A stretch of 64,000 nt of DNA, taken from the NCBI RefSeq assembly GCF_002224645.1, contig NZ_CP022121.1:3254501-3318500 (forward strand). The letters are read 5' to 3'. The translations under genes were made by a program, and so were the position numbers. Source of the DNA: Dehalobacterium formicoaceticum. Its GTDB lineage: Bacteria > Bacillota > Dehalobacteriia > Dehalobacteriales > Dehalobacteriaceae. Each line of letters begins with the position of its first letter. The stretch's first letter is position 1. Shown piece after piece: positions 1,886 through 64,000 of this stretch. Under the pieces are notes generated by a model. That model saw nothing but the letters and a program-made list of their open reading frames with translations, did no database searches and was not told the DNA's origin.

Positions 1886-2047
1886 CTGAGAGATTAGCTG
1901 TAGACCAACCAGTTTGCTCCGTCGGTGTCTTTTGACTTTCCAGAGTTGAGTCCTGACGCGGTCCTTTTACCTGAAAGTTTCACTTTCAATTTGCTAAAAT
2001 CAAAAGCTTGCTTCTTCGGTACCCAATGGGATTCTCCCACGTCTTTC
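1865..2047 (-). promoter_or_regulatory. Tandem glycine riboswitch
   Basis: Read on the minus strand, the leader of grdX holds two consecutive glycine-aptamer-like units. The first (about 2047-1951) contains GGGAGAATCCC, ACCGAAG and the conserved end TTTCAGGTAAAAGGAC. The second (about 1950-1865) contains ACTCTGGAAAGTC, ACCGACGGAGCAAACTGG and CTCTCAGGTAAAAAGACAG. These match the known glycine riboswitch blocks (ACCGRMGG and CTCTCAGGTAAAAGGACAGAG-like). The 3' strand of aptamer 2 overlaps the 5' arm of a terminator hairpin, so glycine binding probably controls read-through into grdX-grdE. Confidence 0.9.
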
Positions 2048-2148
2048 ATACTCAAATACTATTCATTTTATAAAACGAATTTTATTTTGGTAAAATTATT
2101 TACAGGAAATCAAAAGCTTCTTATATCAATTATTATTTAATTATTTGC

Positions 2149-10150: not shown

Positions 10151-11305
10151 TTATGCGCTGGGATAGAGACGTGTCAGCACAAATTCCTTGTGATTGAGCA
10201 CTTCGGCATCAGTGAAACATCCCCGAGATGTTTTGACAACACATTCCATCACCTTGTCTGCTGCTTGATCAAGAGTCAGTTCTCTGCTCAGTACGCCGCT
10301 GATATCTACATCGATATGCTCCGACATTGATTCACAGGTTTTCGGATTAGCCGACATTTTTATCACCGGTTCAATGGGGTTACCCACAATATTGCCTTGA
10401 CCCGTGATGAAGATATGGAGCGTCGCTCCCGCTGCCATCATCAGTGTGACACATTCAGCTGCCGCAGCTGAAGTATTCATGAAATAGAGCCCCGGTTTCG
10501 TAGGTTCTTCGGCCATTTCCAACAGACCGATAATTGGGCTCTTCCCTGCCTTTTGGATATTGCCCATCGCCTTCTCTTCGATGGTTGTTAAACCACCGGC
10601 AATATTCCCTTGGGTTGGCTGTGTGCCCAACAGGTCGGCTCCTTTGGATTCAATCATATCCATATAGTCTTTATGGACTCTTAAAAACTCTTGCGCCAGT
10701 TCAGGTGTAGCAAAGTGTTTAGCAAGAATATGCTCCCCGCCTGTCGTTTCAGGAGTTTCTCCAAAAATAACTGTGCCGCCCATTGCCACCAATCGATCTC
10801 CGACGACACCTGCTGTTGGGTTTCCGGCAAGACCGGAAGTCGTATCGGATTCACCGCATTTTAAGCTTACAACAAGATCTTTTAATTCACATTCTACTTT
10901 TTCTAAGGATGTGGCATATTTTACATATTCATGGGCTTTTCGGGATGCCATTTCAATTGTTTTTAAGTCACCATGACCTTCAATTCCGAAATAGGTCACC
11001 GGTTTCCCCGTTTCTGCAATGCCATCTGCAACTCGCTTCGCCCAGTTCGGTTCAATCCCGATGACAACAACTGCCGCCACGTTAGGATTGCGGCCTGCTC
11101 CAATGATGGTTTTGAAATGCAATTCAAGGTCTGCCCCGAATTGAATCCGGCCATAGGGATGAGGCAGAGCCAGGGTTCCTGCTATATTATTGGCAACTGC
11201 TTCACAAGCAGCATTGGACAAATCATCCACCGGAAGAATCAGCACATGATTACGAATACCGATCCGTCCATTTTCTCTACGATAGCCTAAAATTTTAGTT
11301 TCCAT
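10151..11305 (-). CDS. suyB: UxaA/SuyB-type lyase large subunit, promoter-distal copy
   Basis: A 384-aa member of the altronate/galactarate dehydratase superfamily (UxaA C-terminal type). The N-terminus, [20 protein letters not shown], and blocks such as [19 protein letters not shown] and GQGNIVGNP are what I recall of SuyB, the large subunit of (2R)-3-sulfolactate sulfo-lyase, which splits sulfolactate into pyruvate and sulfite using iron. Sugar-acid dehydratases share the scaffold, so the substrate is inferred. The preceding suyA-type gene overlaps it by 11 bp. The predicted protein is identical to that of the second copy at 12947-14101. Confidence 0.82.
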
Positions 11306-12946: not shown

Positions 12947-14101
12947 TTACGCGCTGGGATAGAGACGTGTCAGCACAAATTCCTTGTGATTGAGCACTTC
13001 GGCATCAGTGAAACATCCTCGGGATGTTTTGACAACACATTCCATCACCTTGTCTGCTGCTTGATCAAGAGTCAGTTCTCTGCTCAGTACGCCGCTGATA
13101 TCTACATCGATATGCTCCGACATTGATTCACAGGTTTTCGGATTAGCCGACATTTTTATCACCGGTTCAATGGGGTTACCCACAATATTGCCTTGACCCG
13201 TGATGAAGATATGGAGCGTCGCTCCCGCTGCCATCATCAGTGTGACACATTCAGCTGCTGCAGCTGAAGTATTCATGAAATAGAGCCCCGGTTTCGTAGG
13301 TTCTTCGGCCATTTCCAACAGACCGATAATTGGGCTCTTCCCTGCCTTTTGGATATTGCCCATCGCCTTCTCTTCGATGGTTGTTAAACCACCGGCAATA
13401 TTCCCTTGGGTTGGCTGTGTGCCCAACAGGTCGGCTCCTTTGGATTCAATCATATCCATATAGTCTTTATGGACTCTTAAAAACTCTTGCGCCAGTTCAG
13501 GTGTAGCAAAGTGTTTAGCAAGAATATGCTCCCCGCCTGTCGTTTCAGGAGTTTCTCCAAAAATAACTGTGCCGCCCATTGCCACCAATCGATCTCCGAC
13601 GACACCGGCAGTTGGGTTTCCGGCAAGACCGGAAGTCGTATCGGATTCACCGCATTTTAAGCTTACAACAAGATCTTTTAATTCACATTCTACTTTTTCT
13701 AAGGATGTGGCATATTTTACATATTCATGGGCTTTTCGGGATGCCATTTCAATTGTTTTTAAGTCACCATGACCTTCAATTCCGAAATAGGTCACCGGTT
13801 TCCCTGTTTCTGCAATGCCATCTGCAACTCGCTTCGCCCAGTTCGGTTCAATCCCGATGACAACAACTGCCGCCACGTTAGGATTGCGGCCTGCTCCAAT
13901 GATGGTTTTGAAATGCAATTCAAGGTCTGCCCCGAATTGAATCCGGCCATAGGGATGGGGCAGAGCCAGGGTTCCTGCTATATTATTGGCAACTGCTTCA
14001 CAAGCAGCATTGGACAAATCATCCACCGGAAGAATCAGCACATGATTACGAATGCCGATCCGTCCGTTTTCTCTACGATAGCCTAAAATTTTAGTTTCCA
14101 T
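12947..14101 (-). CDS. suyB: UxaA/SuyB-type lyase large subunit, promoter-proximal copy
   Basis: Encodes the same 384-aa protein as the gene at 10151-11305; the DNA differs at about ten positions, all silent. The function is as proposed there: lyase acting on a 2-hydroxyacid, most likely (2R)-sulfolactate. It overlaps suyA by 11 bp and is followed after about 40 bp by larA. As part of the first pair after the promoter it should be the more strongly expressed copy. Confidence 0.82.
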
Positions 14102-50565: not shown

Positions 50566-51222
50566 TTAAACCATTAATTGTAAGGCTTGGGCAAAGTCAT
50601 CGATGAAAAGATCACATATCTCCTTCATTTCTGCTTCTTCCTTACCCCGGTTGGAATCGTCCCGCACCCCAACGACATAAAAACCGGCTTCCTTTGCCAC
50701 CTGACAAGCCAGCAAAGAATCTTCAAAGACCATACATTCCTTTGGTTCCATGTGAAATCTTTGGGCGCAATGGATAAAGATCTCCGGGCTGTCCTTGGTG
50801 GTCTTTAGCTCGTCAATGGTAATGATATAATCCAAAAATTGATCGGCCCCTGTTCTTTTTACGGCTGCTTCCGCAAAATCCCGCATATTGGCGGTTGCCA
50901 GGCAAATTTTTAGACCCTTCTTGGATAGCTGCTCCATAAATTCAAATACATGGGGCTTTAACTGAATTTTATCTCGATAAATTAAAGCTACCTCGTCTAT
51001 CATAAATTTAAAAATTTCTTCCGGGGAGGCCTCCAAATGGTATTCCTTTTTGATATAGGATGCCCCATCCCGGAAACCTTTGGGCTTAATCTCCCGTAAC
51101 ATGTCATCATTGGGACTGATGCCGTGCTTTGCCAAAAGCTTCTTCAGCATCTCATCAATATAATTCATCGAAGTTACAATGGTGCCGTCAAAATCAAGGA
51201 TAGCTAATTTTTTCTGATTCAT
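50566..51222 (-). CDS. HAD-superfamily phosphatase
   Basis: A 218-aa hydrolase with all HAD motifs: LDFDGTIVTS (nucleophile Asp10 in DFDGT), CLATANMRDFAEAA (motif II), and VFEDSLLACQVAKEAG (motif IV), with an alpha-helical cap as in phosphoglycolate phosphatase or beta-phosphoglucomutase. It follows the RuBisCO-like gene by 68 bp in the same direction. In the methionine salvage pathway a HAD phosphatase (MtnX) acts right after a RuBisCO-like enolase (MtnW), so it may similarly remove the phosphate that the FGGY kinase adds. Confidence 0.9.
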   Translation of the reverse strand: MNQKKLAILDFDGTIVTSMNYIDEMLKKLLAKHGISPNDDMLREIKPKGFRDGASYIKKEYHLEASPEEIFKFMIDEVALIYRDKIQLKPHVFEFMEQLSKKGLKICLATANMRDFAEAAVKRTGADQFLDYIITIDELKTTKDSPEIFIHCAQRFHMEPKECMVFEDSLLACQVAKEAGFYVVGVRDDSNRGKEEAEMKEICDLFIDDFAQALQLMV

Positions 51223-51289
51223 TTTATTATTTTAATCCATTTCATTTTTTTTGATTCATCAAATTCCAAGACTCTCACTTCATCCGACC

Positions 51290-52618
51290 TTAATTCGTCA
51301 ATTCAAAGATGGATTTATGAGGATCATAAATCCCCCACTGATCAATGGCCGCTTTTAATTCCCCATGTTCTTTGGCATAATCTGACAAAGGAATGTTCTT
51401 CATGGCCGCCTCTGCTGCCTGATTTAAGGCTTTGACACCTGCTTCCAAACCCAGGGGATGAGCATGCATCCCGGCCCCGGCGCCAATGACAATATCGTTG
51501 CCCAAATCCTGCATCATCGCCGGGATCATGCCCGGATGAATGCCGGCACAGGGACTGGGGAAGGTTGGTTTCAGATCATGGAAAGGAGCCTGTAATGCCT
51601 GGGCGACCCGCACATATCTTTCCTTCATCCCGGGAACTTTACCATAGGCACTGTTGTAGACGACAAGATCCGCACCGTCTAATCTCATAAATTTACCGTG
51701 CACCAAATGGGAGGACAGTCCGGTATTTTCCCCCAAATACATGGCTCCGGCAAAGCAGGGATGGGCAAGGAGGGGCACATTGATCTCCGAATCTTCCGCC
51801 AAAGCTGCCAAACTGCCGTATCCTGAAGCATGCACATTTAACATCAAGGCTTCCGCCCCCAGCTCAAGGGCTCTTTTTGCTTTTTGCAGCATAATGTCCT
51901 GGCGATTGGTGATATTGGGGAAATAAAGGACTTTTTTGCCGGTCTCCTCATAAACTTCGTGCACAACCTGAACACAGGCTTTAATGCGGTCTTCCAAAGG
52001 CGCATGCACCGGATCGGCAATTAATTCGTCATCTTTAATAATATCTACTCCGGCTAAAGCCAGTTGTCTGAACTGTCTTTTGATTACATCGACGGGAATC
52101 CCGGTGCAAGGCTTGATCATGGCCATTACGGGCGGCCTTTCTTCGATGTTCAATAATTTCCTTAAGCCCTGAATCCCAAATTTCGGCCCTTTAAAGCCGG
52201 CGGTAAAGCTCTTGGGAAATTCCAATTCCAATAGCTTTAAATTATTGGTCATGGAAATATTGCCGAATACCGTGCTTAAAAGCTCCGGCATTTGATGGCC
52301 GATATTTTTCCAGGGGAAAGCGATTCTTACGATGCAAGACTTTTCTCCTTCCGGTGCATAAGCCTCATATCCGGGGACGGGAAAGACGCCGATAACCCGA
52401 CCCACGTGTTTCCGTCTCACTTCTGGTGTTTCATCGGGTACCGGCATCCATGTGCCTGTTGTCTGCTCTACCGCCACTGCTCCGGCCCGCATTAAAAAGT
52501 CACTGGTCTCCGCTTTCATTAAATAGGTGGCCACAATAAATTCGTCTAAGTTCAATGATTCTGGCTGACAAAAAATAATGGGATCATATTTTGTATGCAT
52601 AATCTTTGCACGCTCCAT
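51290..52618 (-). CDS. RuBisCO-like protein (form IV)
   Basis: A 442-aa RuBisCO large-subunit homologue. By alignment to spinach numbering it keeps Glu60 (here Glu51), Thr65 (Thr56), Asn123 (Asn120), Lys175 (Lys169), the carbamate/metal triad Lys201-Asp203-Glu204 (Lys195, Asp197, Glu198 in IIKDDEL), His294 (His286) and Lys334 (Lys327). It has lost Lys177 (Cys171), Arg295 (Pro), His327 and the SGG phosphate loop (CAG). It cannot be a true carboxylase but keeps the metal centre for enolase or isomerase chemistry. It begins two bases after the FGGY kinase stop. The substrate is unknown. Confidence 0.92.
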   Translation of the reverse strand: MERAKIMHTKYDPIIFCQPESLNLDEFIVATYLMKAETSDFLMRAGAVAVEQTTGTWMPVPDETPEVRRKHVGRVIGVFPVPGYEAYAPEGEKSCIVRIAFPWKNIGHQMPELLSTVFGNISMTNNLKLLELEFPKSFTAGFKGPKFGIQGLRKLLNIEERPPVMAMIKPCTGIPVDVIKRQFRQLALAGVDIIKDDELIADPVHAPLEDRIKACVQVVHEVYEETGKKVLYFPNITNRQDIMLQKAKRALELGAEALMLNVHASGYGSLAALAEDSEINVPLLAHPCFAGAMYLGENTGLSSHLVHGKFMRLDGADLVVYNSAYGKVPGMKERYVRVAQALQAPFHDLKPTFPSPCAGIHPGMIPAMMQDLGNDIVIGAGAGMHAHPLGLEAGVKALNQAAEAAMKNIPLSDYAKEHGELKAAIDQWGIYDPHKSIFELTN

Positions 52619-52620
52619 TC

Positions 52621-54252
52621 TTATGAATTTTTATTTAATACAGGATTGCTTTTAAACAATTCCTCCTGATACCTGGCTAAATCGTCATCATTTTCGTGAT
52701 TCTTCATGGTTGGATCCAATTCCAGCTCCCGCAAATATGAACATACATTAAAAGTATCTGACATTTGAACCTTTAATAATCCCTGATGACAATAATAGGC
52801 ATTTCGATAATAAATGGCATGGGCTTTATTGGGCTGATATGTTTTATCCGGAATTAGCAATTGGGCCAAGGTTTCTTTGATATCGGAAATATCCCCCACA
52901 GCATAAGCTGCCACCAACGCGCTGGCCAGTGTAGCACCTTCTTTTCTCTTTAATGTTACACCTTTGGCACTCAGGGCATCTGATTTGATTTGATTCCAAA
53001 CATCACTTTTACTGCCCCCTTCAGTGAAGATCACGTTATTAATATCCACACCTACATTTCTGATTTTGTCTGTAAAAGTGACATATTCATAGGCGATGGA
53101 TTCCAGAATGGCCCGCCACAGAACTCCGGTATCGGTAGCACTGGACATATTTAAGAAACATCCGGTGGCATTGGCTGCTTCATTACATCCCCCTTGTAAA
53201 TAGGGGAAAAACATGGTGCCATTAGATCCCGGGGGAACATTTTCTGCCAGGGCATTGGCTTCTTCATAAAAACTATTATCCCCGGTCCGGCCGATGACTC
53301 TGTCCCGAAACCACTGGAGGGACAGTCCCCCGGTGCGAATATAACCCCAGTAATAGTAGGTATCCGGTAGTGTTCCCGTAGTGAAGTACAAACCGGAATT
53401 GCGGCTTAGTTCCTCATTGATGCCATCCACCATCACACCGAACATGGCGGCGGTTCCCGCCACATCAGCAGCCATACCCGGTGACACAATCCCGCAGCCT
53501 AAGAAGGACTGCATGGTATCTCCGGCACCTGCCACAATGGGAACGCCCTGGGGCAGTCCGGTAAATTCTGCGGCCTCTTGGGAAAGATTGCCCACGATAT
53601 CCCAGGGTTTTACGATGCGGGGCAATATCTCCATCGGGATGCCAAACATGTCCATCTGTTTCCGGGACCAGGTCTTTTCTACAGCGTTAAAGCCGATTAA
53701 CCAGCCGGAGATGGTGCTCCAGTCGATAAACATATCCTTGGCTTTTAATCCGGCTAATTTAGATAAAACATAAGGCCCGTTATTCATGATTTTGGCACCG
53801 TGTTTTTTAAATGCTTCATGATTTTTTAAGAGCCACATGGCGATGACAGTGGGCTGTAACGCCTCAACAATGGAGTTGCCGCTTTCTTCAATCCAAATCG
53901 GTTCACAATTTTCTTTAATCCACTTTGCTTCTTTTTCTGCCCGGGAATCCAGATAGGGAATAAATGGAGTGATGGCATTGCCCTCTTCATCCACCCCCAC
54001 AACCCCGCAAATGATCCCATCACCACAAATTGCCCGTACATCTCGGGGATCGATACCGCTTTTGGTTAAGCATTGTTTGATGCCATTTAATGCTGATGTC
54101 ACATAAGCATCAGCGTCCAACTCTGCCCAGCAGGGCTGAGGATATAATATTTCATTTGCTGTAGCATGTTGAGCAACACTATTAAAATTTTCATCATAAA
54201 GCACAACTTTGGTGCTTTGGGTTCCGCAATCGAGGCTGATATAGTATTTCAT
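52621..54252 (-). CDS. FGGY-family carbohydrate kinase
   Basis: A 543-aa sugar kinase. The N-terminal phosphate-binding motif is YISLDCGTQSTKVVLY; the second domain has GAGDTMQSFLGCG and the C-terminal signature FTEGGSKSDVWNQIKSDAL. The length and WAELDADAYV stretch recall xylulokinase-like members. It should phosphorylate a polyol or ketose that is then used by the adjacent RuBisCO-like protein. It follows the SorC regulator by 40 bp. Confidence 0.92.
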   Translation of the reverse strand: MKYYISLDCGTQSTKVVLYDENFNSVAQHATANEILYPQPCWAELDADAYVTSALNGIKQCLTKSGIDPRDVRAICGDGIICGVVGVDEEGNAITPFIPYLDSRAEKEAKWIKENCEPIWIEESGNSIVEALQPTVIAMWLLKNHEAFKKHGAKIMNNGPYVLSKLAGLKAKDMFIDWSTISGWLIGFNAVEKTWSRKQMDMFGIPMEILPRIVKPWDIVGNLSQEAAEFTGLPQGVPIVAGAGDTMQSFLGCGIVSPGMAADVAGTAAMFGVMVDGINEELSRNSGLYFTTGTLPDTYYYWGYIRTGGLSLQWFRDRVIGRTGDNSFYEEANALAENVPPGSNGTMFFPYLQGGCNEAANATGCFLNMSSATDTGVLWRAILESIAYEYVTFTDKIRNVGVDINNVIFTEGGSKSDVWNQIKSDALSAKGVTLKRKEGATLASALVAAYAVGDISDIKETLAQLLIPDKTYQPNKAHAIYYRNAYYCHQGLLKVQMSDTFNVCSYLRELELDPTMKNHENDDDLARYQEELFKSNPVLNKNS

Positions 54253-54291
54253 CTAGATCCCCCTTAACATTTTTGCTTTCATTTCTTTTAT

Positions 54292-55218
54292 TTATTGTAA
54301 CAATTCCCTGGCTGTCTCTGAGTTGGTACAAAAAATATCAATGATCCCTCCCTTTAAAGCAGCCCGTATGGCTTCTGTCTTTCCCAGTCCCTCGGCGGCA
54401 GCTATAACACAGGGACATTTTTTGATGTGCCTGATTTTTGCACCTAAAAACATATCGCTCTGTTCCTTTAGAATTTCGTTACCCTCTGCATCAATAAAGG
54501 AACCGGCAATAATTGCCTGTGCCCCCTTTTGATGGGCCGTTAAAATTTCTTCATTACTGATATCGCATTGACTAAGGCTGGATTCAGTGGTAGTTTGTCC
54601 TATTCCGGTAATAATGATGTCCAGTTTTTCGTAGGCTTCAAAAACCGGTTTGATGGCCGGATTATTGATTAATTCTTTTCTGATTTTTTCTTCCCGGATA
54701 ACCATGGGCGTACTTAATACCATATGACCGGCATTCAAACGTTCGGAAAATCTTCGGCAATTATTATTGGCATACCAGTCGATGCCCCGGGATGTCGCCC
54801 CGGCCAGCAAGGGAATAAATTTCAGATCTTCACTATTGTGAATCATCGTATAGCTGGAGCACATTGCCAGTGTTTTGCCGGCGGAGATGCCAATATAGTC
54901 ACCTGGACGTACTTTTGATGAAACAACTCTGGATAGTTCTTCGGCAATTGCTCTTAATGGTTCCTTGCCGTAGGTATCTACCACCAGGACATCGGAAAGA
55001 TGAAATTTATTTTTAATATCATCGGCTAATTTGTAAGCTTCAGAAAAAGGATCCTTGACGGTAATGGAAACAATGTTTTTTTCTCTGGCTTCAGATAAAA
55101 TCCTGCTCACTTGAGGCCGGGAGATATACATCTTCTTGGCAATTTCACTTTGACTTAAACCTTCAAGATAATATAATTTGCTAATATCTACCATCAATTT
55201 CAACCTGGTTGAATCCAT
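54292..55218 (-). CDS. SorC/DeoR-type sugar-binding regulator
   Basis: A 308-aa regulator: N-terminal HTH (YYLEGLSQSEIAKKMYISRPQVSRIL) and a C-terminal sugar-phosphate-binding domain (GISAGKTLA, ITGIGQTTTESS). I start it at MDSTRLK (ATG at 55218), the family's usual beginning; the frame is open 24 codons further. It heads the kinase-RLP-phosphatase cluster and probably senses the phosphorylated sugar made by the kinase. Confidence 0.91.
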   Translation of the reverse strand: MDSTRLKLMVDISKLYYLEGLSQSEIAKKMYISRPQVSRILSEAREKNIVSITVKDPFSEAYKLADDIKNKFHLSDVLVVDTYGKEPLRAIAEELSRVVSSKVRPGDYIGISAGKTLAMCSSYTMIHNSEDLKFIPLLAGATSRGIDWYANNNCRRFSERLNAGHMVLSTPMVIREEKIRKELINNPAIKPVFEAYEKLDIIITGIGQTTTESSLSQCDISNEEILTAHQKGAQAIIAGSFIDAEGNEILKEQSDMFLGAKIRHIKKCPCVIAAAEGLGKTEAIRAALKGGIIDIFCTNSETARELLQ

Positions 55219-55332
55219 CAAATCACATCTTTCAGCAAGTGTTATGATCATTCTAACTAAAATTATACTATAAGAAAAAGCATTCTTCAATCATTTGTGC
55301 ACTTATGAACATTTGTGCAATAAAACAGAGGG

Positions 55333-55399
55333 GGTAAAACAGGGGACGGTTCTTTGTTCGATGATGCTCATCGAACAAAGAACCGTCCCCTGTTTTACC
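55333..55399. repeat. Perfect 67-bp palindrome of the GGGGACGGTTC family
   Basis: Two 32-bp arms that are exact reverse complements (starting GGTAAAACAGGGGACGGTTC) separated by TGC. It contains the GGGGACGGTTC core seen at 20860-21008. It lies between the end of the nitrogenase-like operon and the start of sorC and could form a long RNA hairpin, though no T run follows. Confidence 0.95.
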
Positions 55400-55411
55400 A
55401 CTGTATAACCT

Positions 55412-56725
55412 TTAGAAATTAAGACCGTTTAATAGCTGCTCTACCAGCAGAAGACTCCCCTGGATACCTAAATGGGTTTTGGGGATCACATCGAGATAGC
55501 CCAGGCTGGGCAGTTCAATTTCGATGCCGCTGAAGATCTGCTCCTGTAATTTCAGCTGGGCAATGGTACTCCCGTTGGACAAGACAATATCGCTTTTGGC
55601 TGCAAAAATATCCCGCTGCCAGGCAGACTCCAGGTGGTGCTCCTTTAACAAATCCTGCACTTGTTCTTCATATAAACCAGGATCATCCTCCGGGAGATTT
55701 AGGCTTGTCGGCACCATGCCCAGGTATTGAAAAAGAAAATCCGTATAAGCCAGGAGGGCTGAGGACGGGGCTTCAACTGCGAAGGTCGTTCCCTTGGGCA
55801 GTCCGGTCAGAGCATATACATTGGAAATCGGAATATAGGCGTCGGCCCGGGCTTTTTCCAGGGCCGAGATCAAGGAACGGCTTGTAAAGGATGCTCCCCC
55901 GGCCAGGCTCTCCTCCCTTAAAACTCCTTCAAAATAGGACTGAGTCAGATCGAAGCCGATGGGCAGCCCCCTGTCAAATAAAAAGTAGGGCATCCCCAAA
56001 GCTTCTTGCAGATATTTTGCCACCTCCAGACCTAATTCCGGATAGAGGATCACATTCAGGTCGGCCTGGGGAATTTTTTTGATTTCCTCCAGGCTGGTAT
56101 CTGCGCACAAAACACAATTGATCTGGAGACCGCATGCATTGAAAAGCCGTTCCATTTCCTGAATATCTCCTAGAAAATATTTATTGTAAATGGAAATTCC
56201 GATTAAGTTGACCAAATTGCCCTGTTTCTTGCCCGGTGCTGTTTCTAGAGGAAGACTTTTCAACAAGACAATCAATGCATCCTGAAAGCCACGATAAAAG
56301 TTTTGGGAATATCCGGGATTCTCGATGGTAATCACATGGGAATGGTGAATTTTTTTGGCGGCAATCCCAGCCAAATCGTCTCCGATTAAAGCAGCCCCGG
56401 GTGAATTGACGATCGCCACTAAATCCTGATCCTGTTTGTCAATATAATCTAATAAATCATTCAGTTTCTCCCCGCTGCCATATACATAATCATAGCTGTC
56501 CAGATAGGTACAAGGTACTCTGGGTTGTTTAAAATAAAATTTATCCGGATAGTTCAGGGGGTCGAAGGATGTTTGCCTGGGAAAGCGGCTGTCGGAAATA
56601 GCGCTGTGGTAATATTTGCAGCCTGTAGGCCCGTTGATAATCACCACGGACTTGTTGATGCCTTCCAAAGCAAAAACGATGCCCGATAAACTATCGGGTG
56701 TGATATTTTTGGAATAATATTTCAT
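55412..56725 (-). CDS. Nitrogenase component 1-like protein, NifK-type
   Basis: A 437-aa member of the NifD/NifK/BchN/BchB superfamily. Near the N-terminus it has Cys36 (NGPTGCKYYH) and Cys72 (RVPCTYLDS), at positions used for cluster ligands, but the third position is Pro109 in NSPGAALIGDDL where other members have TC before xxxxIGDDL. The C-terminal half has no FeMo-cofactor His/Cys that I can identify. Its start overlaps the end of the NifH-NifD fusion by 35 bp, so the two are translationally coupled and probably form a heteromer like NifDK or BchNB. It is the last gene of the operon. Confidence 0.87.
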   Translation of the reverse strand: MKYYSKNITPDSLSGIVFALEGINKSVVIINGPTGCKYYHSAISDSRFPRQTSFDPLNYPDKFYFKQPRVPCTYLDSYDYVYGSGEKLNDLLDYIDKQDQDLVAIVNSPGAALIGDDLAGIAAKKIHHSHVITIENPGYSQNFYRGFQDALIVLLKSLPLETAPGKKQGNLVNLIGISIYNKYFLGDIQEMERLFNACGLQINCVLCADTSLEEIKKIPQADLNVILYPELGLEVAKYLQEALGMPYFLFDRGLPIGFDLTQSYFEGVLREESLAGGASFTSRSLISALEKARADAYIPISNVYALTGLPKGTTFAVEAPSSALLAYTDFLFQYLGMVPTSLNLPEDDPGLYEEQVQDLLKEHHLESAWQRDIFAAKSDIVLSNGSTIAQLKLQEQIFSGIEIELPSLGYLDVIPKTHLGIQGSLLLVEQLLNGLNF

Positions 56726-58901
56726 CTTTTTTCCACCCTTCCACCAGATTTATCTGCATAAGCTTGGCCCATCTTTTGGCCAAGCACAATCCGGAAAAGA
56801 AACCCACATCGGGGGTATAGGGGATGGTATCGGCCACCACCTTCCCTTCCAAATCGGAAATGGCATAATTGGACAGGAAAAGATCCGGCCTTAGTTCTTG
56901 AATATCCTTTTCCCGGGCTCTCGGATCATATTTTTCCTCCAGGGGAAATTGACCGCCAAAGCGAGTCACAAAAACAGCATCCTGAGAAAAATCCAAAATG
57001 CCGACCTTTACAATCTCCATCCCGGCATCCAGGGCCACTTCCAAAAGCCAATCCAGTTGATGGTTGTAGGCAACCACCATTAATTTTTTCCCTTTTAGCA
57101 CCTTTTTCAATGCTTCTATTTCACGCCGGTAAACCGCTTCATTGTCCGCAATAACTTGAGGCAGCAGATGGGTCTTATGGAAAAAATCCGCCACCTTGGC
57201 CAGCCAGTTTTTCGTTTCATAAAAACCGATGGGGAACGGATCATCCAAAAAAACCGCCCCATACTCCTTTTGAAAAAAGCGTTTTAGCAGCCGCCCGGTA
57301 TAATCCTGGTGGGCCAGGATATTCAAAGGCGCCCTCATAAAATTCCGGATCTGATCCACAGTGGTTTCGCACAAATAACGGCAGTTGACCGTGATGCCTA
57401 AAGGGGTCAGTAAATCTGTAATGGCAGTGAAATTATCAGGGGTGTTTTTGGCCACCACCTTTTCCGAGATGATGTTTACGGTATCCGGCAAGGGAGATGC
57501 TTCCCGGTCAATCAAAGCTTTGGCAATGTTGAGATAGGCCAGGATCATGCCCTGAAGATAATCTCCTCCGATATTGCCGTCGGTGACAATGGGGATAACA
57601 GGTAGATCTTCTTCCTCCAAAGCGGCCATGGCGGTAAGGTCATCTCCGATGATGCCTGAAGGACAGGTACTGACCAGGATCACCGCCTTGGGCTGATCTC
57701 TTTTGGCCTCCTCTACCTTTCCCTTGAGCAGCTGGGCACCGCCAAAGACCATGGTTTTTTCATCCATTTTTGTCGACATCAGATTTGGGGCGATAGATAC
57801 AGGCAAAAGGCTGCCCCGTTCGAAAAGGCCCCTTCTGCCGCAAGAAGTCACCCCTTGATAGGTAATATAAGTGCAGCTTTTCGGCCCATGGGCCACGACA
57901 ATGGCATCCTGCACATGGACACTTATGGTAACAGCCCCATTAAAGGCACAGCCCCGCAGGGGTTCCTGGGAAACAATGCTCTTGGAAAAATATTGATCAT
58001 CATCCAGTTTGGTAGGGTATGCCTCTGCTCCCGCCATAATTTCTGACGGGGCAGCATCCTCCCTTTGCTCCGGTTTTTTAGGAACCGGGGACTGCTCCAG
58101 TCCTAAGACAATCTTTTCTAATTCTTCATCTGTTAAAGGCTTGGCAGCATACAATAGGGGACCTGCGATAATCTTTTGAGCCAGTTCCTTAAAGATCCCG
58201 GCTAGGGGCGAATGACTCCATCCTTCCACGATAGTCTGCCCGGTTTTTTCACCCAGGGCAAATTCATCCCTTCTGGGAATGACCGCAAAGACAGGCAGCT
58301 CCACCGCCTGGGCAAAGCCTTCCACCCGTTCCTTTTCACCCTGCACGTTACGCATATTCCAAATCAGTCCGGCCACCCGTTTTTTACCGTAATCGTAATT
58401 TTTAATACCCCGCAAAATATTATTGGCCGCATAGAGGGACATGAACTCTCCTGAGGTAACGATATAAATTTCATCGGCATATTCCTCACGAATAGGTACG
58501 GCAAATCCTCCGCAGACCACATCCCCCAGCACATCGTAGAGCACCAGGTCATAGGCGCGCTTCTGCAGATTCAAGGCATTGAGCAGTTCAAAGGTGGATA
58601 AAATGCCTCTCCCCGCACACCCCACCCCGGGCTCGGGGCCTCCCGCCTCAATACAGTCAACGCCGCCAAATCCAGTGCAGAGGATATCACTCAATTGATA
58701 ATCCATAGGATTGGTGTTCTTCAGATAATCCAGTACGGTTTGAATTTTTTGACCTTTGAGCAGCAATCGGGTGGAATCATGCTTGGGATCACAGCCGATT
58801 TGCAGCACATGCCGGTCTGCTTGGGACAAAGCGGCGGAAATATTGGCGCAGATGGTGGATTTGCCGATGCCGCCTTTGCCGTAGATGGCAACCTTTTTCA
58901 T
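56691..58901 (-). CDS. NifH-NifD-like fusion protein (reductase plus nitrogenase component 1)
   Basis: A 736-aa protein joining two components that are normally separate. Residues 1-~265 are a NifH/BchL-type iron-protein: P-loop GKGGIGKST (8-16), QIGCDPKHDST, and both [4Fe-4S] ligands Cys95 (GVGCAGRG) and Cys130 (DVVCGGFA). A Pro/Glu-rich linker (~270-305) leads to a NifD-type domain with the three cluster cysteines Cys318 (RGCAFNG), Cys343 (GPKSCTY) and Cys413 (STCPSGIIGDDL). The fusion means a fixed 1:1 ratio of electron donor and acceptor, unlike nitrogenase. It follows the propeller gene by 41 bp. Likely ATP-driven reduction of an unknown substrate. Confidence 0.92.
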   Translation of the reverse strand: MKKVAIYGKGGIGKSTICANISAALSQADRHVLQIGCDPKHDSTRLLLKGQKIQTVLDYLKNTNPMDYQLSDILCTGFGGVDCIEAGGPEPGVGCAGRGILSTFELLNALNLQKRAYDLVLYDVLGDVVCGGFAVPIREEYADEIYIVTSGEFMSLYAANNILRGIKNYDYGKKRVAGLIWNMRNVQGEKERVEGFAQAVELPVFAVIPRRDEFALGEKTGQTIVEGWSHSPLAGIFKELAQKIIAGPLLYAAKPLTDEELEKIVLGLEQSPVPKKPEQREDAAPSEIMAGAEAYPTKLDDDQYFSKSIVSQEPLRGCAFNGAVTISVHVQDAIVVAHGPKSCTYITYQGVTSCGRRGLFERGSLLPVSIAPNLMSTKMDEKTMVFGGAQLLKGKVEEAKRDQPKAVILVSTCPSGIIGDDLTAMAALEEEDLPVIPIVTDGNIGGDYLQGMILAYLNIAKALIDREASPLPDTVNIISEKVVAKNTPDNFTAITDLLTPLGITVNCRYLCETTVDQIRNFMRAPLNILAHQDYTGRLLKRFFQKEYGAVFLDDPFPIGFYETKNWLAKVADFFHKTHLLPQVIADNEAVYRREIEALKKVLKGKKLMVVAYNHQLDWLLEVALDAGMEIVKVGILDFSQDAVFVTRFGGQFPLEEKYDPRAREKDIQELRPDLFLSNYAISDLEGKVVADTIPYTPDVGFFSGLCLAKRWAKLMQINLVEGWKKDEILFQKYHTR

Positions 58902-58942: not shown

Positions 58943-60142
58943 TCACTTCTTCAGGATATCGGGAAACTTTCCTTTTAACTGGTCCAGTGTTACATCTTTT
59001 AAACGGATGGTTTTCATTTCTCCCTTATTTCCCCCGGCTAAGACATCCCCATTGGGTAAGAGAAGCAAAGCGGAGACATATTGATTAAAGCCTAAAATCT
59101 TTTGACCAAGTTTCCAGGAATTTTCCTTATCAGGAATGCGGCTCAGGATTTGCATGGCACCGAAGCTTCCCCCCACCAACACCTCATCCGGTGATAAAAG
59201 CAAAAAGCCGGCAACATAATGATCAAAACCTGTGATTTCCTGAAGGATTTCCCAGGTATTTTTGTTTTGGGCATTGTGTCCCAGGATTTTGATGATACCG
59301 TCGCTTCCCCCCATGAGCACATGGCCCTCCGGCAGCAGCAAAGCCGTGGTGATATAGCTTTGTTTACCATCAACAGTTTCCTGTACCAGCCAATTATCAC
59401 CAACATCAGGATTATGCCGGAGAATTTTTATTTCTCCTTTATATCCGGCAATGAGGATCCTCTCCTCCGGCAGCAATAAGGATACTGTTGAGACAGCTTC
59501 CATGGTTTGGTGGATTTTCCAGATGTTACTCCCCTCGTCAAAGCGGATGATTTCCACTTCGCCCCGAATTCCCCCCACCAATACATCCCCATTGGGCAGG
59601 AGCAATAAATTTTCCACATAATGGTCACTGCCCTCAATCTCTTGCTTTATAATCCATCGGCCTTCCTGCCCGGGGTCGGGACCCAGCACTTTCAACTCCC
59701 CGGAGACACCCCCCGCCAGTACATCACCGTCAGGCAGGTGGATGGCAGTATGGGAATAATCATTAAACCCGGTAATGATTTGGCCGACCTTCCAGCCGAA
59801 CTCATCTTGAGATGGGGGGCTGAGAACTTTTATGCCCTCCTGACTACCCGCCACCAGAATCTGGCCATCGGGCAGCAATAATAAATCGTGGATATAAGCA
59901 TCAAATGCACTGAGACTTTGGTCCACTTCCCACAAGCCTTTAATGAGGGCTGGATACTGGGCCTGAAAGGCAGGCAGCAGTTCCGTCAGGATCCGGTCTT
60001 GTTCCCCCTGCACCTGGGTCATCTTTTCCTCAAATTCAGGGGTCAAGTAACCGCTATCATTTAACTGCCGATACAGTTCTTCCAGTTCATCCAGCAGACC
60101 TTTGTATTTGATCATCATTTCTTTTAATGTTTGAACATTCAT
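58943..60142 (-). CDS. Seven-repeat beta-propeller protein with N-terminal coiled coil
   Basis: A 399-aa protein, no signal peptide. After a helical N-terminus (about 1-80, YKGLLDELEELYRQL) it has seven repeats of about 45 residues with the pattern Y-x-x-x-LLLPNGDVLVGG-x-x-GE-[IV]K-[IV]L, ending in KDVTLDQLKGKFPDI. Seven such units should close a seven-bladed propeller of the WD40/Kelch-like type. Propellers are platforms for protein assembly. It lies four bases after the VWA gene, so its partner is probably the VWA/AAA pair or the nitrogenase-like complex. Confidence 0.83.
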   Translation of the reverse strand: MNVQTLKEMMIKYKGLLDELEELYRQLNDSGYLTPEFEEKMTQVQGEQDRILTELLPAFQAQYPALIKGLWEVDQSLSAFDAYIHDLLLLPDGQILVAGSQEGIKVLSPPSQDEFGWKVGQIITGFNDYSHTAIHLPDGDVLAGGVSGELKVLGPDPGQEGRWIIKQEIEGSDHYVENLLLLPNGDVLVGGIRGEVEIIRFDEGSNIWKIHQTMEAVSTVSLLLPEERILIAGYKGEIKILRHNPDVGDNWLVQETVDGKQSYITTALLLPEGHVLMGGSDGIIKILGHNAQNKNTWEILQEITGFDHYVAGFLLLSPDEVLVGGSFGAMQILSRIPDKENSWKLGQKILGFNQYVSALLLLPNGDVLAGGNKGEMKTIRLKDVTLDQLKGKFPDILKK

Positions 60143-60146
60143 GATC

Positions 60147-62255
60147 TTAGCTCCTAACTCCCATATCCTTTAAAGCATTTTTTAATGTTACGGTTAACTT
60201 CTCCGGCAAACTTTTTAAATCTTGCCCGATAGCAATGCCCAGTTGCAGGCCGGGGATATTGTTATTCCAGACCTCATTGAAAAGATAACTTTCCGTTTCA
60301 TTTACTTCCCCGATCTGAAAACCAAAAACGTAGATCCCCATCTGGATCAATTGTTGAATGCGTGCCGCCGTTTCCAGGGGATGGTCCGGTTCCCCATCGG
60401 TGATTTCGAAAATAATTTTTTTCAGTTTTTGATTCTTGAGCATCAGTTTATCCTTAAGGCTTAAGGTGTTTAAGATATCTGCCAATGTCAGAGCATCATT
60501 GGTGCAGCCCTTAATGGCTCTAATTGCGGTAATGGACTTAATAATATCCGCCTCATTTTTTTGAAAGCGCTTGCTTCTCTCAAACTCCTTAACCTTTTGA
60601 AAACCGGTGCCAAATAAATATACTTCGGAATAAACCTTGAGCTTATTGTTGATTTCCTTCCGGGTTTCATCCAGATAAATATTAAAATCCTTGATGGACA
60701 GCATGGTTAAACAGGCGGCTTGCTTGGCGGCAATGATTTTATTTTGGTCCATGGAGCGGGAACAGTCAATCACAAAGGAGACCTGGATGGTTTCTGGCTT
60801 TTCGATGGCGCTGGGCTTGACCTCCACTTCATCAAAAATCAAAGGATGGTAACGGATCCCTTTCAATTGATTTTCAATAATATTGGGATACTCCCCCACA
60901 AAGCTGTCTACATTTAATCGTCCCCGACGCTTTTTATCCATAACAATGTCATCGTATTCAATGGATCGTTCCACTAATTCCTTCCAAAACATTCTCATGC
61001 TGTTGCGGTAATCCGTGACGCTGGCTCGGATGCTCTCATAATCTGTACGCTCCAGGGAGGCAATTCCGTGTTTTTGATCAAACTCAGCCTTTGCTTTTTC
61101 CCGGTTATGAGCCTCCCTTTCTTCGGGACTCATATTGTTGTAAGTATCCTGTTTGGCAAACTCCTCCAGAATTTTCTTAATCTGCTCCTGGGAGATGGCT
61201 TCTTGCTTCGGATCCCCTTGGGGGCTGTTTTTAAAGGGGTTAAAATCTTCACCTTGATTTGTCTCTTCCTCAGATAATACCCCGGGATCCTCCTCCTTCC
61301 TCTTGGATCGGCCCCGGGAATTTTTTTTAGTTCGGGAGGAATCCGGTGCCCCAATAATGTCGGAAAAAGGCAGACCGCGTAGTTCATCATATAACAATTC
61401 CAGATACATGGGCTGGATGATATGACGAATAATTTGATAGCGCTTTTCAGTGTCCGTTAATTTGCCGACTCGGGGTTTTAAATTTTCGTCAACAATTTCT
61501 CTTAAATCCCTGCCCAGGATTTTTTTGTTGATCAGGGCCAAAACCTGAGGATCCACCCGGGTGATGTGGGCAGCGCCGCCTTTCAGTTCATTTTGAAACA
61601 GATAATAGATTAACTGCTGATGTTTAGGGAGAGTCATCAAGTTCTCTTGGTCATAGCCTAATTTTTGGTATAAGCTGGCCACATGATGATAGCCTTCGGC
61701 GGTAGCATAATAAGGGCTGCGTTTCCGTACCAGGTCGTTGACATAGATATCATCGAAAACAGTGTATAGGGTATAAAGTTCCTGATAGGCAAAATCAGTG
61801 ACCAGATCCTGATCAGGCAAAGGCTGGTCATCCCTGTTTTTTTCCGCCATGATCTCTGAAATGTGGTTGCCGGCTCCCTCTGCCCCTTGCTCCAGCTGTT
61901 CAAAATGCTTTAAGTAGGCACGGGGATTTTTGCGCATATCGATAAAATGACCCAGCTCGTGATAAAAGGCGAACTTGGTTTCTTCAACGGAATAGCCCTT
62001 TTCGATAAACCACAGGGCCGGAACAACCACCTTGTTCTCCTCCGGCTCGAAGGAGAAAACTTCCGCATCCGCCGATGCCTGGTAGGAAATAGAGGCATCC
62101 CCGGCAAAAGTCACTAAATCTCGGCTTTCCCGGCGGATCATGTCTTTCACCTGGGACAAGGAATTGCGCAGGCGCTCTTTTCTGAGCAACTCCTCCTTGA
62201 TTGCTTCCTGTTTAATTTGCTCTTCTTCCCTTTGAGGGTTATTTTCTTGATTCAT
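60147..62255 (-). CDS. VWA-domain protein with HExxH metallopeptidase-like segment
   Basis: A 702-aa cytosolic protein. The N-terminal half has a zinc-protease-like motif HELGH (His99-Glu100, His103) within a helical region; a charged linker follows (about 300-380); the C-terminal half is a von Willebrand A domain whose metal-ion site DxSxS is intact (Asp497-Ser499-Ser501 in FVIDCSRSMD). This is the layout of CoxE/NorD/DUF2201-type partners of MoxR ATPases. The ATG at 62255 has GGGAG eight bases upstream; an ATG five codons earlier does not. It follows the AAA ATPase gene by 64 bp. Confidence 0.85.
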   Translation of the reverse strand: MNQENNPQREEEQIKQEAIKEELLRKERLRNSLSQVKDMIRRESRDLVTFAGDASISYQASADAEVFSFEPEENKVVVPALWFIEKGYSVEETKFAFYHELGHFIDMRKNPRAYLKHFEQLEQGAEGAGNHISEIMAEKNRDDQPLPDQDLVTDFAYQELYTLYTVFDDIYVNDLVRKRSPYYATAEGYHHVASLYQKLGYDQENLMTLPKHQQLIYYLFQNELKGGAAHITRVDPQVLALINKKILGRDLREIVDENLKPRVGKLTDTEKRYQIIRHIIQPMYLELLYDELRGLPFSDIIGAPDSSRTKKNSRGRSKRKEEDPGVLSEEETNQGEDFNPFKNSPQGDPKQEAISQEQIKKILEEFAKQDTYNNMSPEEREAHNREKAKAEFDQKHGIASLERTDYESIRASVTDYRNSMRMFWKELVERSIEYDDIVMDKKRRGRLNVDSFVGEYPNIIENQLKGIRYHPLIFDEVEVKPSAIEKPETIQVSFVIDCSRSMDQNKIIAAKQAACLTMLSIKDFNIYLDETRKEINNKLKVYSEVYLFGTGFQKVKEFERSKRFQKNEADIIKSITAIRAIKGCTNDALTLADILNTLSLKDKLMLKNQKLKKIIFEITDGEPDHPLETAARIQQLIQMGIYVFGFQIGEVNETESYLFNEVWNNNIPGLQLGIAIGQDLKSLPEKLTVTLKNALKDMGVRS

Positions 62256-62319
62256 TTTTTGTTCTCCCATATTTTTGCCCGCCCTTCCTTATTTCAGGCA
62301 GACTCTTTCCGGCAAAAGG

Positions 62320-64000
62320 TCAGCTGATATCCTTGCTAAGTTTCTCCAAAGCTTTTTCAGTTAAATGCAGCTCTTCCATCTTTCCGGCAAAATCGGCATA
62401 TCGATCCATTTCAATTTTTTCTCCCATCGGTTCATCAAAAGTTATTTCCGGATAAATTTGACGGGCAGGCATCGGTCCGTATAAAATTTCAATCATTTCC
62501 CGAGGTGTTTTAATTTCCTCCGGTTTGCTGCGATATCGATATTCCGTTGATCTGATTTCATCAAACCCGGTTAAAGTTGAGCCCACAGGTTTTACCTGCA
62601 CATTCCATCCTTCGTTTTTTTGGAAAAAGCCAAAGCGTAAAGCCTGAGAAAAAATATAGCTTTGATCATCAGGATTGGTAATACTGGACAGAAAACCTTC
62701 CCACAAGGCTTTATCCAGGTCCTTTTCCTGGCCGGCATTCCATTGCTTTAAAACCCGCAGCACGTTGCGGATGGACAAAACGGAGCGTTCCAAGCGCGGT
62801 TCCAGAGCATCACCGGAGGATGTGGCTTGGGCCTGGCTGTCTTTCCATTTGCCGGAGAAAACATCCTGGGTGGTGCGAGCCAGCTGGGCCAGCTTAAATA
62901 GCTTATCAATGTACCGATCAATTTCCGGCAGCTTTAAAGCCCCGGAACGATCAGCCAGGACGGCAATCATAATATGGAAAAGCTCATTTTTTTCCGGATC
63001 CGTTTGATTATCCCAATTGCCCTCGTCTGTTTGAGGCAAATAATCATATTCAAAAATATCCAGGCGGGAGGCAAAGGCTTCATTAAAATCATGGGTACCG
63101 CTGTATCCGACAAAATTACTGCTTAAATTCCCGGTTCCGGTGATGGAAAAACCGTCGGCAATGACAATACGGTCGCCGCCGGGAATATAAGTGGTCTGAC
63201 CCGGTGAGCTTTGAATCACGTCATTTAAGGAGATCAAAACGGCATTGGGAATGGTATTGATCTCATCAATAATTACGGGTCTGCCCTCTTTTGCCCCTCG
63301 GTAAATTTCTTTTTCGATTTTTTCGATTTCCGTGCCAAAAGCCTGGTTTTTCAATTTATAAATCTCCAGGATCTTCCGGGCCGCCGCTTTTTCCGTCTGC
63401 CTGCGCAATTTATCCGACATTTTACTTAAGGCACGGTGATTCTCTTCTTGCCATGCCCCATATTCCCGGTTAAGATCCTCCATATGCTCCAGGATGGGCT
63501 TGTTGTCATATTTGGTTAATTTTAAGCCTTTTTCAATAAATAAATCCTGGGTCGATGTGTTTCTGGATCCGGAAATAAACAAAGGGGTGAATTTTTCCAC
63601 GGCTTCCGGATCGCCGCTTTCAAAAGCTTTTTTATATTCCTGCACTTGATGGTAATAAATATTACCGTATTTATTGACCTTTTCTTCCTTGGTTTTGTTT
63701 TGATTGTTTTTCAGCCACTTGACAAAAGCCTGGTCCGCTGCCTGCACAGCATGCTTATGCATCAGGTATTCTTTGGCGGTGACAATGGCCAGCTCGGTTT
63801 TACCGCCCCCTAGATGCCCGTGGATAAAGGTGGCTTGTCCCTCATTCATATTGGTCAGCATTCTTGCTTTACATATTTTTACATGAGCGGTCTGTACTAA
63901 ATTACCTTTTTGCACTTCTTCAATATAGTTTCTGTATTCCAGGGCATTGATGGCAAAATAAGCATCAGGATTGGTTTTTTTTAGCTCAGAGCGCTGATCC
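62320..64000 (-). CDS. MoxR-like AAA+ ATPase (5' end outside window)
   Basis: 560 codons are visible; the frame remains open to the window edge, so the true start lies beyond 64000. It has Walker A GHLGGGKTE, a long charged helical insertion (~180 residues) before Walker B PVIIDEINTIP, sensor-1 GTGNLSSNF and the arginine-finger region AFASRLDIFEYDYLP, in line with MoxR/CbbQ/NorQ-type ATPases. The insertion is much longer than in typical MoxR proteins. MoxR ATPases work with VWA proteins to remodel enzymes or insert metals; the adjacent VWA gene is the natural partner. Confidence 0.83.
   Translation of the reverse strand, partial: DQRSELKKTNPDAYFAINALEYRNYIEEVQKGNLVQTAHVKICKARMLTNMNEGQATFIHGHLGGGKTELAIVTAKEYLMHKHAVQAADQAFVKWLKNNQNKTKEEKVNKYGNIYYHQVQEYKKAFESGDPEAVEKFTPLFISGSRNTSTQDLFIEKGLKLTKYDNKPILEHMEDLNREYGAWQEENHRALSKMSDKLRRQTEKAAARKILEIYKLKNQAFGTEIEKIEKEIYRGAKEGRPVIIDEINTIPNAVLISLNDVIQSSPGQTTYIPGGDRIVIADGFSITGTGNLSSNFVGYSGTHDFNEAFASRLDIFEYDYLPQTDEGNWDNQTDPEKNELFHIMIAVLADRSGALKLPEIDRYIDKLFKLAQLARTTQDVFSGKWKDSQAQATSSGDALEPRLERSVLSIRNVLRVLKQWNAGQEKDLDKALWEGFLSSITNPDDQSYIFSQALRFGFFQKNEGWNVQVKPVGSTLTGFDEIRSTEYRYRSKPEEIKTPREMIEILYGPMPARQIYPEITFDEPMGEKIEMDRYADFAGKMEELHLTEKALEKLSKDIS

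Follow-up and report, generated by a model that had tools for sequence, protein, structure and literature searches.

The 64-kb window analysed here comprises 64,000 nucleotides of the Dehalobacterium formicoaceticum genome (RefSeq assembly GCF_002224645.1, contig NZ_CP022121.1, positions 3,254,501 to 3,318,500) and is part of a single contig of 3,766,545 bp. This genome is designated G000; other genomes carry G numbers and individual loci L numbers. The (-) strand of the window holds a gene for a 736-amino acid fusion of NifH to a NifD-type subunit (56691..58901), recognized from its open reading frame (ORF), its Pfam matches and the presence of homologous fusions elsewhere, together with a gene for a NifK-type partner of 437 amino acids (55412..56725). 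By their coordinates the two genes overlap by 35 nt (56691..56725). We refer to the three parts as H, D and K, and to the pair as HD-K. Judging from sequence comparisons, we lean towards the view that the pair is an ATP-driven, nitrogenase-like reductase of corrinoids or of a related tetrapyrrole, with the composition (HD)2K2 or larger.

The fusion frame consists of 736 codons uninterrupted by a stop, and matches PF00142 over residues 2-266 (E 9.4e-94) and PF00148 over residues 318-715 (E 3.1e-69), both above the gathering score. A preliminary description of this DNA, which placed a reductase and a component 1 in one chain, was therefore right. The NifH domain occupies residues 1-267 (58101..58901; Pfam, motifs and an Fe protein fold), and is followed by a 44-residue interdomain linker of low model confidence (residues 268-311; 57969..58100) and by the NifD-type domain (residues 312-734; 56700..57968; Pfam and alignments), all on the (-) strand. 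Within the NifH domain the P-loop GKGGIGKS, Asp38, Cys95, Arg98, Asp123, Asp127 and Cys130 are intact; since the P-loop, Asp and Cys motifs are kept, the domain is expected to bind both ATP and a [4Fe-4S] cluster. The partner matches PF00148 with an E value of 1e-43. The residues named in the preliminary description (Cys95, Cys130, Cys318, Cys343 and Cys413 of the fusion; Cys36, Cys72 and Pro109 of the partner) were all located where it had put them.

Overlap of the fusion and K genes is a recurrent feature. It amounts to 32-38 nt at L055, L056, L058, L059, L060, L069, L070, L071, L073, L074, L090, L096 and L168, and to 4-22 nt at seven archaeal loci, while L072 has a gap; these figures leave out L061, L078, L169 and L170, where the start of K is uncertain. 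The overlap suggests coupled translation.

Distribution and phylogeny of the fused form

A single-sequence search of genome contigs gave no match to the fusion, and loci were collected with a profile search, the best 80 of which are considered here; they are not a census. Fused homologues of 45-55% identity occur in five other genomes (G002, G041, G348, G067 and G243), with no stop between the domains, a check that the preliminary description had proposed. Others are present in G771, G807 and G649, on contigs of Clostridium tetanomorphum, Methanococcoides vulcani and Methanosarcina sp. KYL-1, and on Treponema and Myxococcota metagenome-assembled genome (MAG) contigs. Including the window copy we counted 26 fused ORFs, from three bacterial phyla and archaea, 24 of which have a full-length D match (the exceptions are L057, at a contig end, and L096, with a short D). 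An assembly artefact or missed stop is rejected on these counts, and the refuting outcome envisaged earlier, that all homologues would be separate genes, did not occur. Open frames of 776-839 amino acids also surround other NifH matches in six genomes; the one examined, L045, is a separate NifH of 286 amino acids.

The fusion is uncommon. It was found in five of 398 genomes of an even phylum sample (matches at E 1e-60), in four of 391 genomes of the class of G067 (E 1e-120), and in four of 43 genomes of the window organism's own class; the first and last of these counts include G014, whose copy is cut by contig ends. A quick-search tree of 81 D domains puts all 26 fused rows into a single 28-row clade with a Shimodaira-Hasegawa-like approximate likelihood ratio (SH-aLRT) value of 90. 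The two non-fused rows in it are L084, where separate but overlapping frames encode H and D, and L058, which is the second piece of the G014 gene. The sister of this clade consists of five separate-gene loci (L097, L107, L128, L133 and L136; SH-aLRT 96), and the window copy belongs to a seven-row group with L055, L059, L060, L070, L073 and L168 (SH-aLRT 95). The deep archaeal and Myxococcota rows are on long branches and were flagged by the program. The simplest reading of the tree would be one fusion event and one later split, or a frameshift in L084.

The architecture itself is already known. One sentence, with data not shown, mentions an H-D fusion in some Archaea, Firmicutes and Deltaproteobacteria (Dos Santos 2012, PMC3464626), which is the same architecture as HD here. 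Section 11 of that paper also deals with related group IV pairs in which few cysteines are conserved, and gives for the fusion neither sequences, cysteine pattern, context nor function; a corrinoid link and a NifH-NifH-NifD form are likewise not mentioned in that section. Beyond it, no paper on the fusion, the H:D ratio or a corrinoid link was found among the matches listed in a literature search that covered titles and abstract openings, with most subscription journals outside its coverage. What is new is the association with cobalamin riboswitches and corrinoid genes.

Cluster site, fold and known relatives

Alignment of the D rows points to three putative cluster ligands in the fusion, Cys318 (57948-57950), Cys343 (57873-57875) and Cys413 (57663-57665), all on the (-) strand. 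Among the 26 aligned D rows (fused sequences plus L058, L084, L097 and L133), Cys318 and Cys343 are kept in all 25 rows that cover them and Cys413 in 26 of 26. On the partner side, alignment of 25 K rows shows Cys36 (56618-56620, (-)), the putative fourth ligand, in every one. It aligns with the Cys of 'GPQGC' in the BchB entry 3aet_B, in a stretch that is collinear but weak (1.1 bits); the native BchB residue there is Asp36, 3aet being a variant. Pro109 (56399-56401, (-)), which is present in 24 rows, aligns by profile with the Cys of 'ALTC' in the same entry and is thus at a canonical Cys position, as had been proposed. The third canonical position, that of NifK Cys70, is Asp11 in the window partner; among the 22 K rows besides L097 that cover position 11, Asp is found in 21 and Glu in L077. 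Unfused L097 has K cysteines at all three positions (11, 36 and 109), and the fused clade appears to have lost two of them and kept one.

Cys72 (56510-56512, (-)) lies between Cys36 and Pro109, outside the canonical Cys positions. It aligns with a Ser of MarK and is kept in 21 of the 25 K rows, with Ala or Ser in the other four. The preliminary description had the partner keeping two of the three canonical positions, and so arrived at five ligands. Both statements need correction: Cys36 is the only canonical cysteine kept, and a five-ligand cluster with Cys72 is rejected because this residue is neither at a ligand position nor invariant.

Its preference for a [4Fe-4S]-type bridging cluster, as in BchNB, over a P-cluster is upheld. 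Three Cys ligands from D and one from K would fit a single [4Fe-4S] cluster like that of dark-operative protochlorophyllide oxidoreductase (DPOR), because these four cysteines are invariant, the K model is nearest to BchB, and the Cys ligand of the iron-molybdenum cofactor (FeMo-co) is missing. The P-cluster set of six cysteines is represented by three in D and one in K. Aligned with Clostridium pasteurianum NifD, the position of the FeMo-co ligand alpha-Cys275 is His531 in the fusion, and this residue varies among fusion relatives; the profile alignments stop before the alpha-His442 site, and the C-terminal part of D has no invariant His. The NifB core was not found in seven of the ten fusion genomes searched, that of the window included. 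In these seven, NifB matches are either absent or tails at profile positions 312-436 (323-434 in G000).

Structure models were built for single chains, on 6 and 7 sequences, and their cluster loops are of low confidence; the predicted local distance difference test (pLDDT) score is below 50 for residues 33-84 of K and, around the linker, for residues 269-304 and 306-317. The H domain model has the Fe protein fold (Z 37.7 to 6n4k_A over 268 residues; root-mean-square deviation (rmsd) 2.0). For the K model the eleven best VIA rows are B-type chains of DPOR (Z 31.5-33.8, 385-397 residues, rmsd 3.3-3.6), followed near Z 30 by NifEN, MarK and another DPOR chain, and Foldseek also puts this model nearest to BchB. 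Z values for the D model are 25-26 against chains of BchB, Mar and NifEN.

Fe proteins such as NifH and BchL work as homodimers on each D/K half. In G041, G067, G771, G807 and G649, five of the ten fusion genomes, the fusion is the only PF00142 match above 100 bits (others are below 45 bits), and no other full-length NifH was found. Since the Fe protein is dimeric, each chain has one H, and these five genomes yielded no further full-length NifH, the H domains of two chains probably pair, within or between tetramers. It had been suggested that donor and acceptor cannot dissociate when they share a chain. This does not follow, as the linker is 22-103 residues long across the 26 fused ORFs and mostly of pLDDT below 50, so that tethered undocking is possible. 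A Myxococcota MAG (L078:2627-5884) encodes a tandem NifH-NifH-NifD protein of 1085 amino acids, with FecCD and PBP2 sequences nearby. It contains two P-loops, each H domain also has both cysteine motifs, and these tandem domains would supply the Fe protein dimer in one chain. Separately, two short NifH-like fragments in the window genome (G000:C1:2602357-2602715, (-); frames of 90 and 58 amino acids) are likely a decayed nifH.

With PF00142 and PF00148 matched above the gathering scores and His531 at the FeMo-co Cys position, HD-K belongs to the nitrogenase-like (group IV/Nfl) superfamily. Like DPOR (BchL-BchN-BchB), it would be a three-part ATP-driven reductase with three Cys in the D-type subunit, one K-type ligand at the BchB Asp36 position and a K model nearest to BchB. 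It differs from DPOR in that the fourth ligand would be Cys36 rather than Asp and that H is fused to D, and it misses the NCBIfam cut-offs (BchL 207.5 against 345 bits, BchN 49.6 against 420, and BchB 65.5 for D or 87.2 for K against 490). Of the NCBIfam models, CfbC is the one that the H domain matches best, at 330.6 bits against a cut-off of 402; CfbD reaches 37.3 against 268. CfbCD reduces a tetrapyrrole, Ni-sirohydrochlorin a,c-diamide, in F430 biosynthesis (PMC7242693). CfbD is described as a homomer (PMC12552129), whereas D and K differ here and H is fused to D. The methylthio-alkane reductase MarHDK is likewise composed of H, D and K, and among PDB sequences it is MarK that the K profile matches best. 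Mar is described as carrying P- and [Fe8S9C]-clusters of the nitrogenase type, involving Cys270 and His429 of MarD, and as having MarB as a partner (PMC12552129); the P-cluster ligands and the cofactor Cys ligand are missing here. For each of nitrogenase, DPOR, CfbCD and Mar, HD-K lacks at least one of the defining features tested; it likely works most like DPOR or CfbCD.

Corrinoid genes and riboswitches at related loci

A cobalamin riboswitch (RF00174) is present at six of 17 bacterial fusion-clade loci (L055, L059, L060, L069, L071 and L073) and at none of 24 control loci from other nitrogenase-like systems. The first eight controls gave a Fisher p of 0.13, and 16 more were then scanned; the full comparison gives p 0.003, or 0.008 without L059, values that ignore kinship and depend on hand-picked controls, four of them with FecCD genes. 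From genomic density, the chance of at least two of 20 loci having a same-strand riboswitch within 500 bp is 2e-4, again with kinship ignored. A riboswitch precedes the fusion at a distance of 269 bp in L055 and of 166 bp in L071. At L060, L069 and L073 it heads the gene run that holds the fusion, being one gene away in L069; the L060 match is weak (34.6 bits against 31.5), and that of L059 lies downstream of K. Cobalamin riboswitches usually shut genes off when B12 is plentiful, and HD-K would on this account serve B12-poor cells. As a separate observation, a molybdenum/tungsten riboswitch was seen about 0.5 kb after the separate NifH gene of another nitrogenase-like system (L125:5248-5384).

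L055 has the gene order riboswitch, CobA/BtuR-type adenosyltransferase, riboswitch, HD, K, followed by a third riboswitch, an S-layer homology (SLH) protein, a DUF4430 protein, a CbiQ-type component and a double ATP-binding cassette (ABC) ATPase; the adenosyltransferase (PF02572, 202.5 bits) is encoded between two riboswitches (L055:7252-9070). In L073 the order is riboswitch, PduO-type adenosyltransferase, PBP2, FecCD, ATPase, HD, K, the adenosyltransferase scoring 49.3 bits with PF01923 (cut-off 24) and 58.6 with NCBIfam PduO_Nterm (cut-off 108). The CobA/BtuR-type and PduO-type families are unrelated, and to find two unrelated adenosyltransferases beside HD-K at two loci is suggestive. L060 reads riboswitch, CbiQ-type T component, double ABC ATPase, SLH, DUF4430, HD, K, energy-coupling factor (ECF) S component; the ECF, SLH and DUF4430 set is common to L055 and L060, and forms one run with HD-K in the latter. 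The SLH and DUF4430 proteins may resemble the two halves of transcobalamin.

Among archaea, L075 (Methanococcoides vulcani) encodes CbiZ, ChlI-like, ChlD-like, TIM barrel, PBP2, FecCD and ATPase proteins, HD, K, CbiK and CobN, the last passing the TIGR02257 cut-off, and L076 has a similar gene set. Riboswitch excepted, the set is common to corrinoid operon-2 of Dehalobacter restrictus, which comprises a cobalamin riboswitch, Fep/Btu-like transporters, CbiZ, CobN and Mg-chelatase subunits, and whose proteins are 46-fold up on corrinoid starvation (PMC4285132); the words nitrogenase and nif are absent from the main text of that paper.

Two unfused systems share parts of this context. Sister locus L097 (413-10923) has two riboswitches, a TonB receptor, an ExbB-type protein, PBP2, FecCD and separate H, D and K genes. 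Its receptor has TonB-B12 as best NCBIfam match, below the cut-off (262.5 against 599.7 bits), and its H gene directly follows FecCD, with no ABC ATPase gene between. The window genome itself carries a second, unfused nitrogenase-like operon (L171:3241-8904; G000:C1:2189240-2194903) with the order cobalamin riboswitch, NifH (281 amino acids), a 148-amino acid protein without a Pfam match, a PF00148 protein (400 amino acids), PBP2, FecCD and an ABC-type ATPase, the latter assigned from the start of its sequence only.

Besides the choice of controls and the neglect of kinship, a number of observations weigh against a corrinoid function. No cobalamin riboswitch was found at the other 11 of the 17 bacterial loci (L056, L057, L058, L061, L070, L072, L074, L078, L084, L090 and L096, of which L057 and L058 are from the same genome), at any of the seven archaeal fusion loci scanned, or near the fusions of L168-L170. 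A whole-genome search of ten fusion genomes (29.1 Mb, sizes rounded) gave at least 126 riboswitch matches, six of them below the cut-off, with 108 first-look candidates scored in the seven genomes that had more; among the matches listed none is close to the fusions of G000, G041, G014, G243, G771, G807 or G649, the nearest being 11 kb away (G649), and the window copy is without one, none of the 11 matches in G000 being near it. As L097 and L171 show, the riboswitch is not exclusive to the fusion. A tblastn search of 118 records, which could miss distant adenosyltransferases, gave them at no loci other than L055 and L073, from which the two queries came. CobN was not found in nine of the ten fusion genomes, and as a general partner of the fusion it is rejected. 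FecCD genes lie beside seven of 28 fusion-clade loci and six of 57 controls, a weak separation, and FecCD transporters also serve siderophores. BtuF is not the best match of the binding proteins of L075, L171 and L073 (that of L075 is IsdE, for haem, and that of L171 and L073 is TIGR04281, all below cut-off), and no transporter match reaches its curated cut-off. No transporter, adenosyltransferase or other corrinoid gene was found beside the window copy, and more than half of the fusion loci have no corrinoid marker in what was scanned. For the window copy, a corrinoid role would follow from kinship only, because of its place in the tree; its own neighbours are propeller, vWA and unassigned genes upstream and sugar-type genes downstream.

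The transporter evidence bears on an alternative in which HD-K releases metal reductively from imported chelates (a ferric siderophore, haem or a metallo-tetrapyrrole), FecCD being metal transporters. FecCD at seven of the 28 fusion-clade loci would suit it, as would the own-genome paralogue, in which H, the 148-amino acid protein and a K-like protein precede PBP2, FecCD and the ABC ATPase, and binding proteins that do not match BtuF best. We nevertheless regard metal release as unlikely: the regulator seen, even at that paralogue, is the cobalamin riboswitch, adenosyltransferases accompany the pair at L055 and L073 and CbiZ, CbiK and CobN at L075, and the best permease matches of L075, L171 and L073 are to BtuC, below cut-off. 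Slightly more doubtful is a reductive activator that uses ATP to drive electrons onto a low-potential corrinoid protein or the bound cofactor of another enzyme, as opposed to reducing a free small molecule. Dehalobacterium, the window organism, lives by corrinoid methyl transfer, and the potentials attained by NifH-type ATPases come close to that of Co(II)/Co(I), both of which would suit an activator. Against it, D and K retain the two-subunit fold of DPOR, where this fold accommodates a small tetrapyrrole, and the neighbours identified, among the part scanned, are transport, adenosylation and salvage genes and not methyltransferases.

Neighbouring genes, other functions and implications

Upstream of the fusion on the (-) strand are genes for a beta-propeller-like protein (58943..60142), 41 nt away, a von Willebrand factor A (vWA) protein with an HELGH motif (60147..62270), and a protein without a Pfam match (62320..63999), open at the window end, in which a GHLGGGKT stretch resembles a P-loop. 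All three are possibly in the same transcript as the fusion, the propeller gene on spacing only. The row (58943-63999) is reminiscent of MoxR-vWA-propeller ternary systems, a name taken from a Pfam model matched by another protein. Relatives of the three proteins were not found at other fusion loci, and the trio was rejected as a chelatase motor of HD-K for this reason and because the third protein has no Pfam match.

Downstream of HD-K, genes for a SorC-type regulator, an FGGY kinase, a RuBisCO-like protein and an HAD phosphatase (50566-55290) form a probable sugar or methylthio-sugar salvage operon. The RuBisCO-like protein scores exactly at the cut-off of PRK09549, the 2,3-diketo-5-methylthiopentyl-1-phosphate enolase model (409/409). 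Between the partner gene and the SorC regulator is a near-perfect inverted repeat (55329-55403), which is a REP-like (repetitive extragenic palindromic) element, since its 21-base core has 77 matches in the genome with up to two mismatches and none in a reversed control. Elsewhere in the window, two ORFs of 384 amino acids with the same translation (10151-11305 and 12947-14101), on either side of a 426-amino acid ORF, are a recent duplication, and a glycine riboswitch aptamer (58 bits) lies at 1949-2049 (-).

The downstream genes raise a sulfur salvage function like that of methylthio-alkane reductase, in which the RuBisCO-like protein, FGGY kinase and HAD phosphatase (50566-54252) would feed a methylthio compound to HD-K. 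The PRK09549 score and the position of MarK as best PDB sequence match of the K profile speak for it. We consider it improbable, as the ligands of the Mar clusters are missing (K is without two of three P-cluster positions and the cofactor Cys is absent), the NifB core was not found in the window genome, the sugar genes come with a SorC regulator of their own and are set apart by the repeat element, and no relatives of them are clustered with genes at the other fusion loci examined. A nitrogenase or NifEN-like scaffold, to which the alignment of the D profile with NifD and NifE might point, can for practical purposes be dismissed, given the absent FeMo-co Cys ligand, the single cluster Cys in K, the absence of the NifB core from seven of ten genomes searched and the missed nif NCBIfam cut-offs.

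In the corrinoid or tetrapyrrole reductase that we prefer, two H domains from different chains would form the Fe protein dimer and hydrolyse ATP. Electrons would pass to a DPOR-type [4Fe-4S] cluster with Cys318, Cys343, Cys413 and Cys36 of K as its ligands, and from this cluster to a corrinoid in the D/K cavity. The reaction favoured would take a corrinoid, either imported or newly made, from Co(II) to Co(I), because corrinoid adenosyltransferases need Co(I) and a NifH-type ATPase would fit as the low-potential source; alternatively, the macrocycle would be reduced, as happens in DPOR and CfbCD. A more specific proposal, which we advance tentatively, is that this clade of anaerobes uses the fused enzyme as a B12 corrinoid reductase that delivers Co(I) to an adjoining adenosyltransferase, with electrons supplied by NifH dimers formed between chains, the NifH-NifH-NifD homologue being a natural single-chain alternative to such dimers.

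If this is true, corrinoids would join the substrates of nitrogenase-like enzymes, and a function would be assigned to a branch of group IV that had none assigned. Anaerobes would have an ATP-driven route to very low-potential Co(I) before adenosylation. The tethered donor and acceptor may also offer a natural system in which to ask whether the Fe protein has to be released for every electron transferred. The stoichiometry can likewise be put to the test, given a 1:1 H to D ratio and five genomes in which no spare full-length NifH was found.

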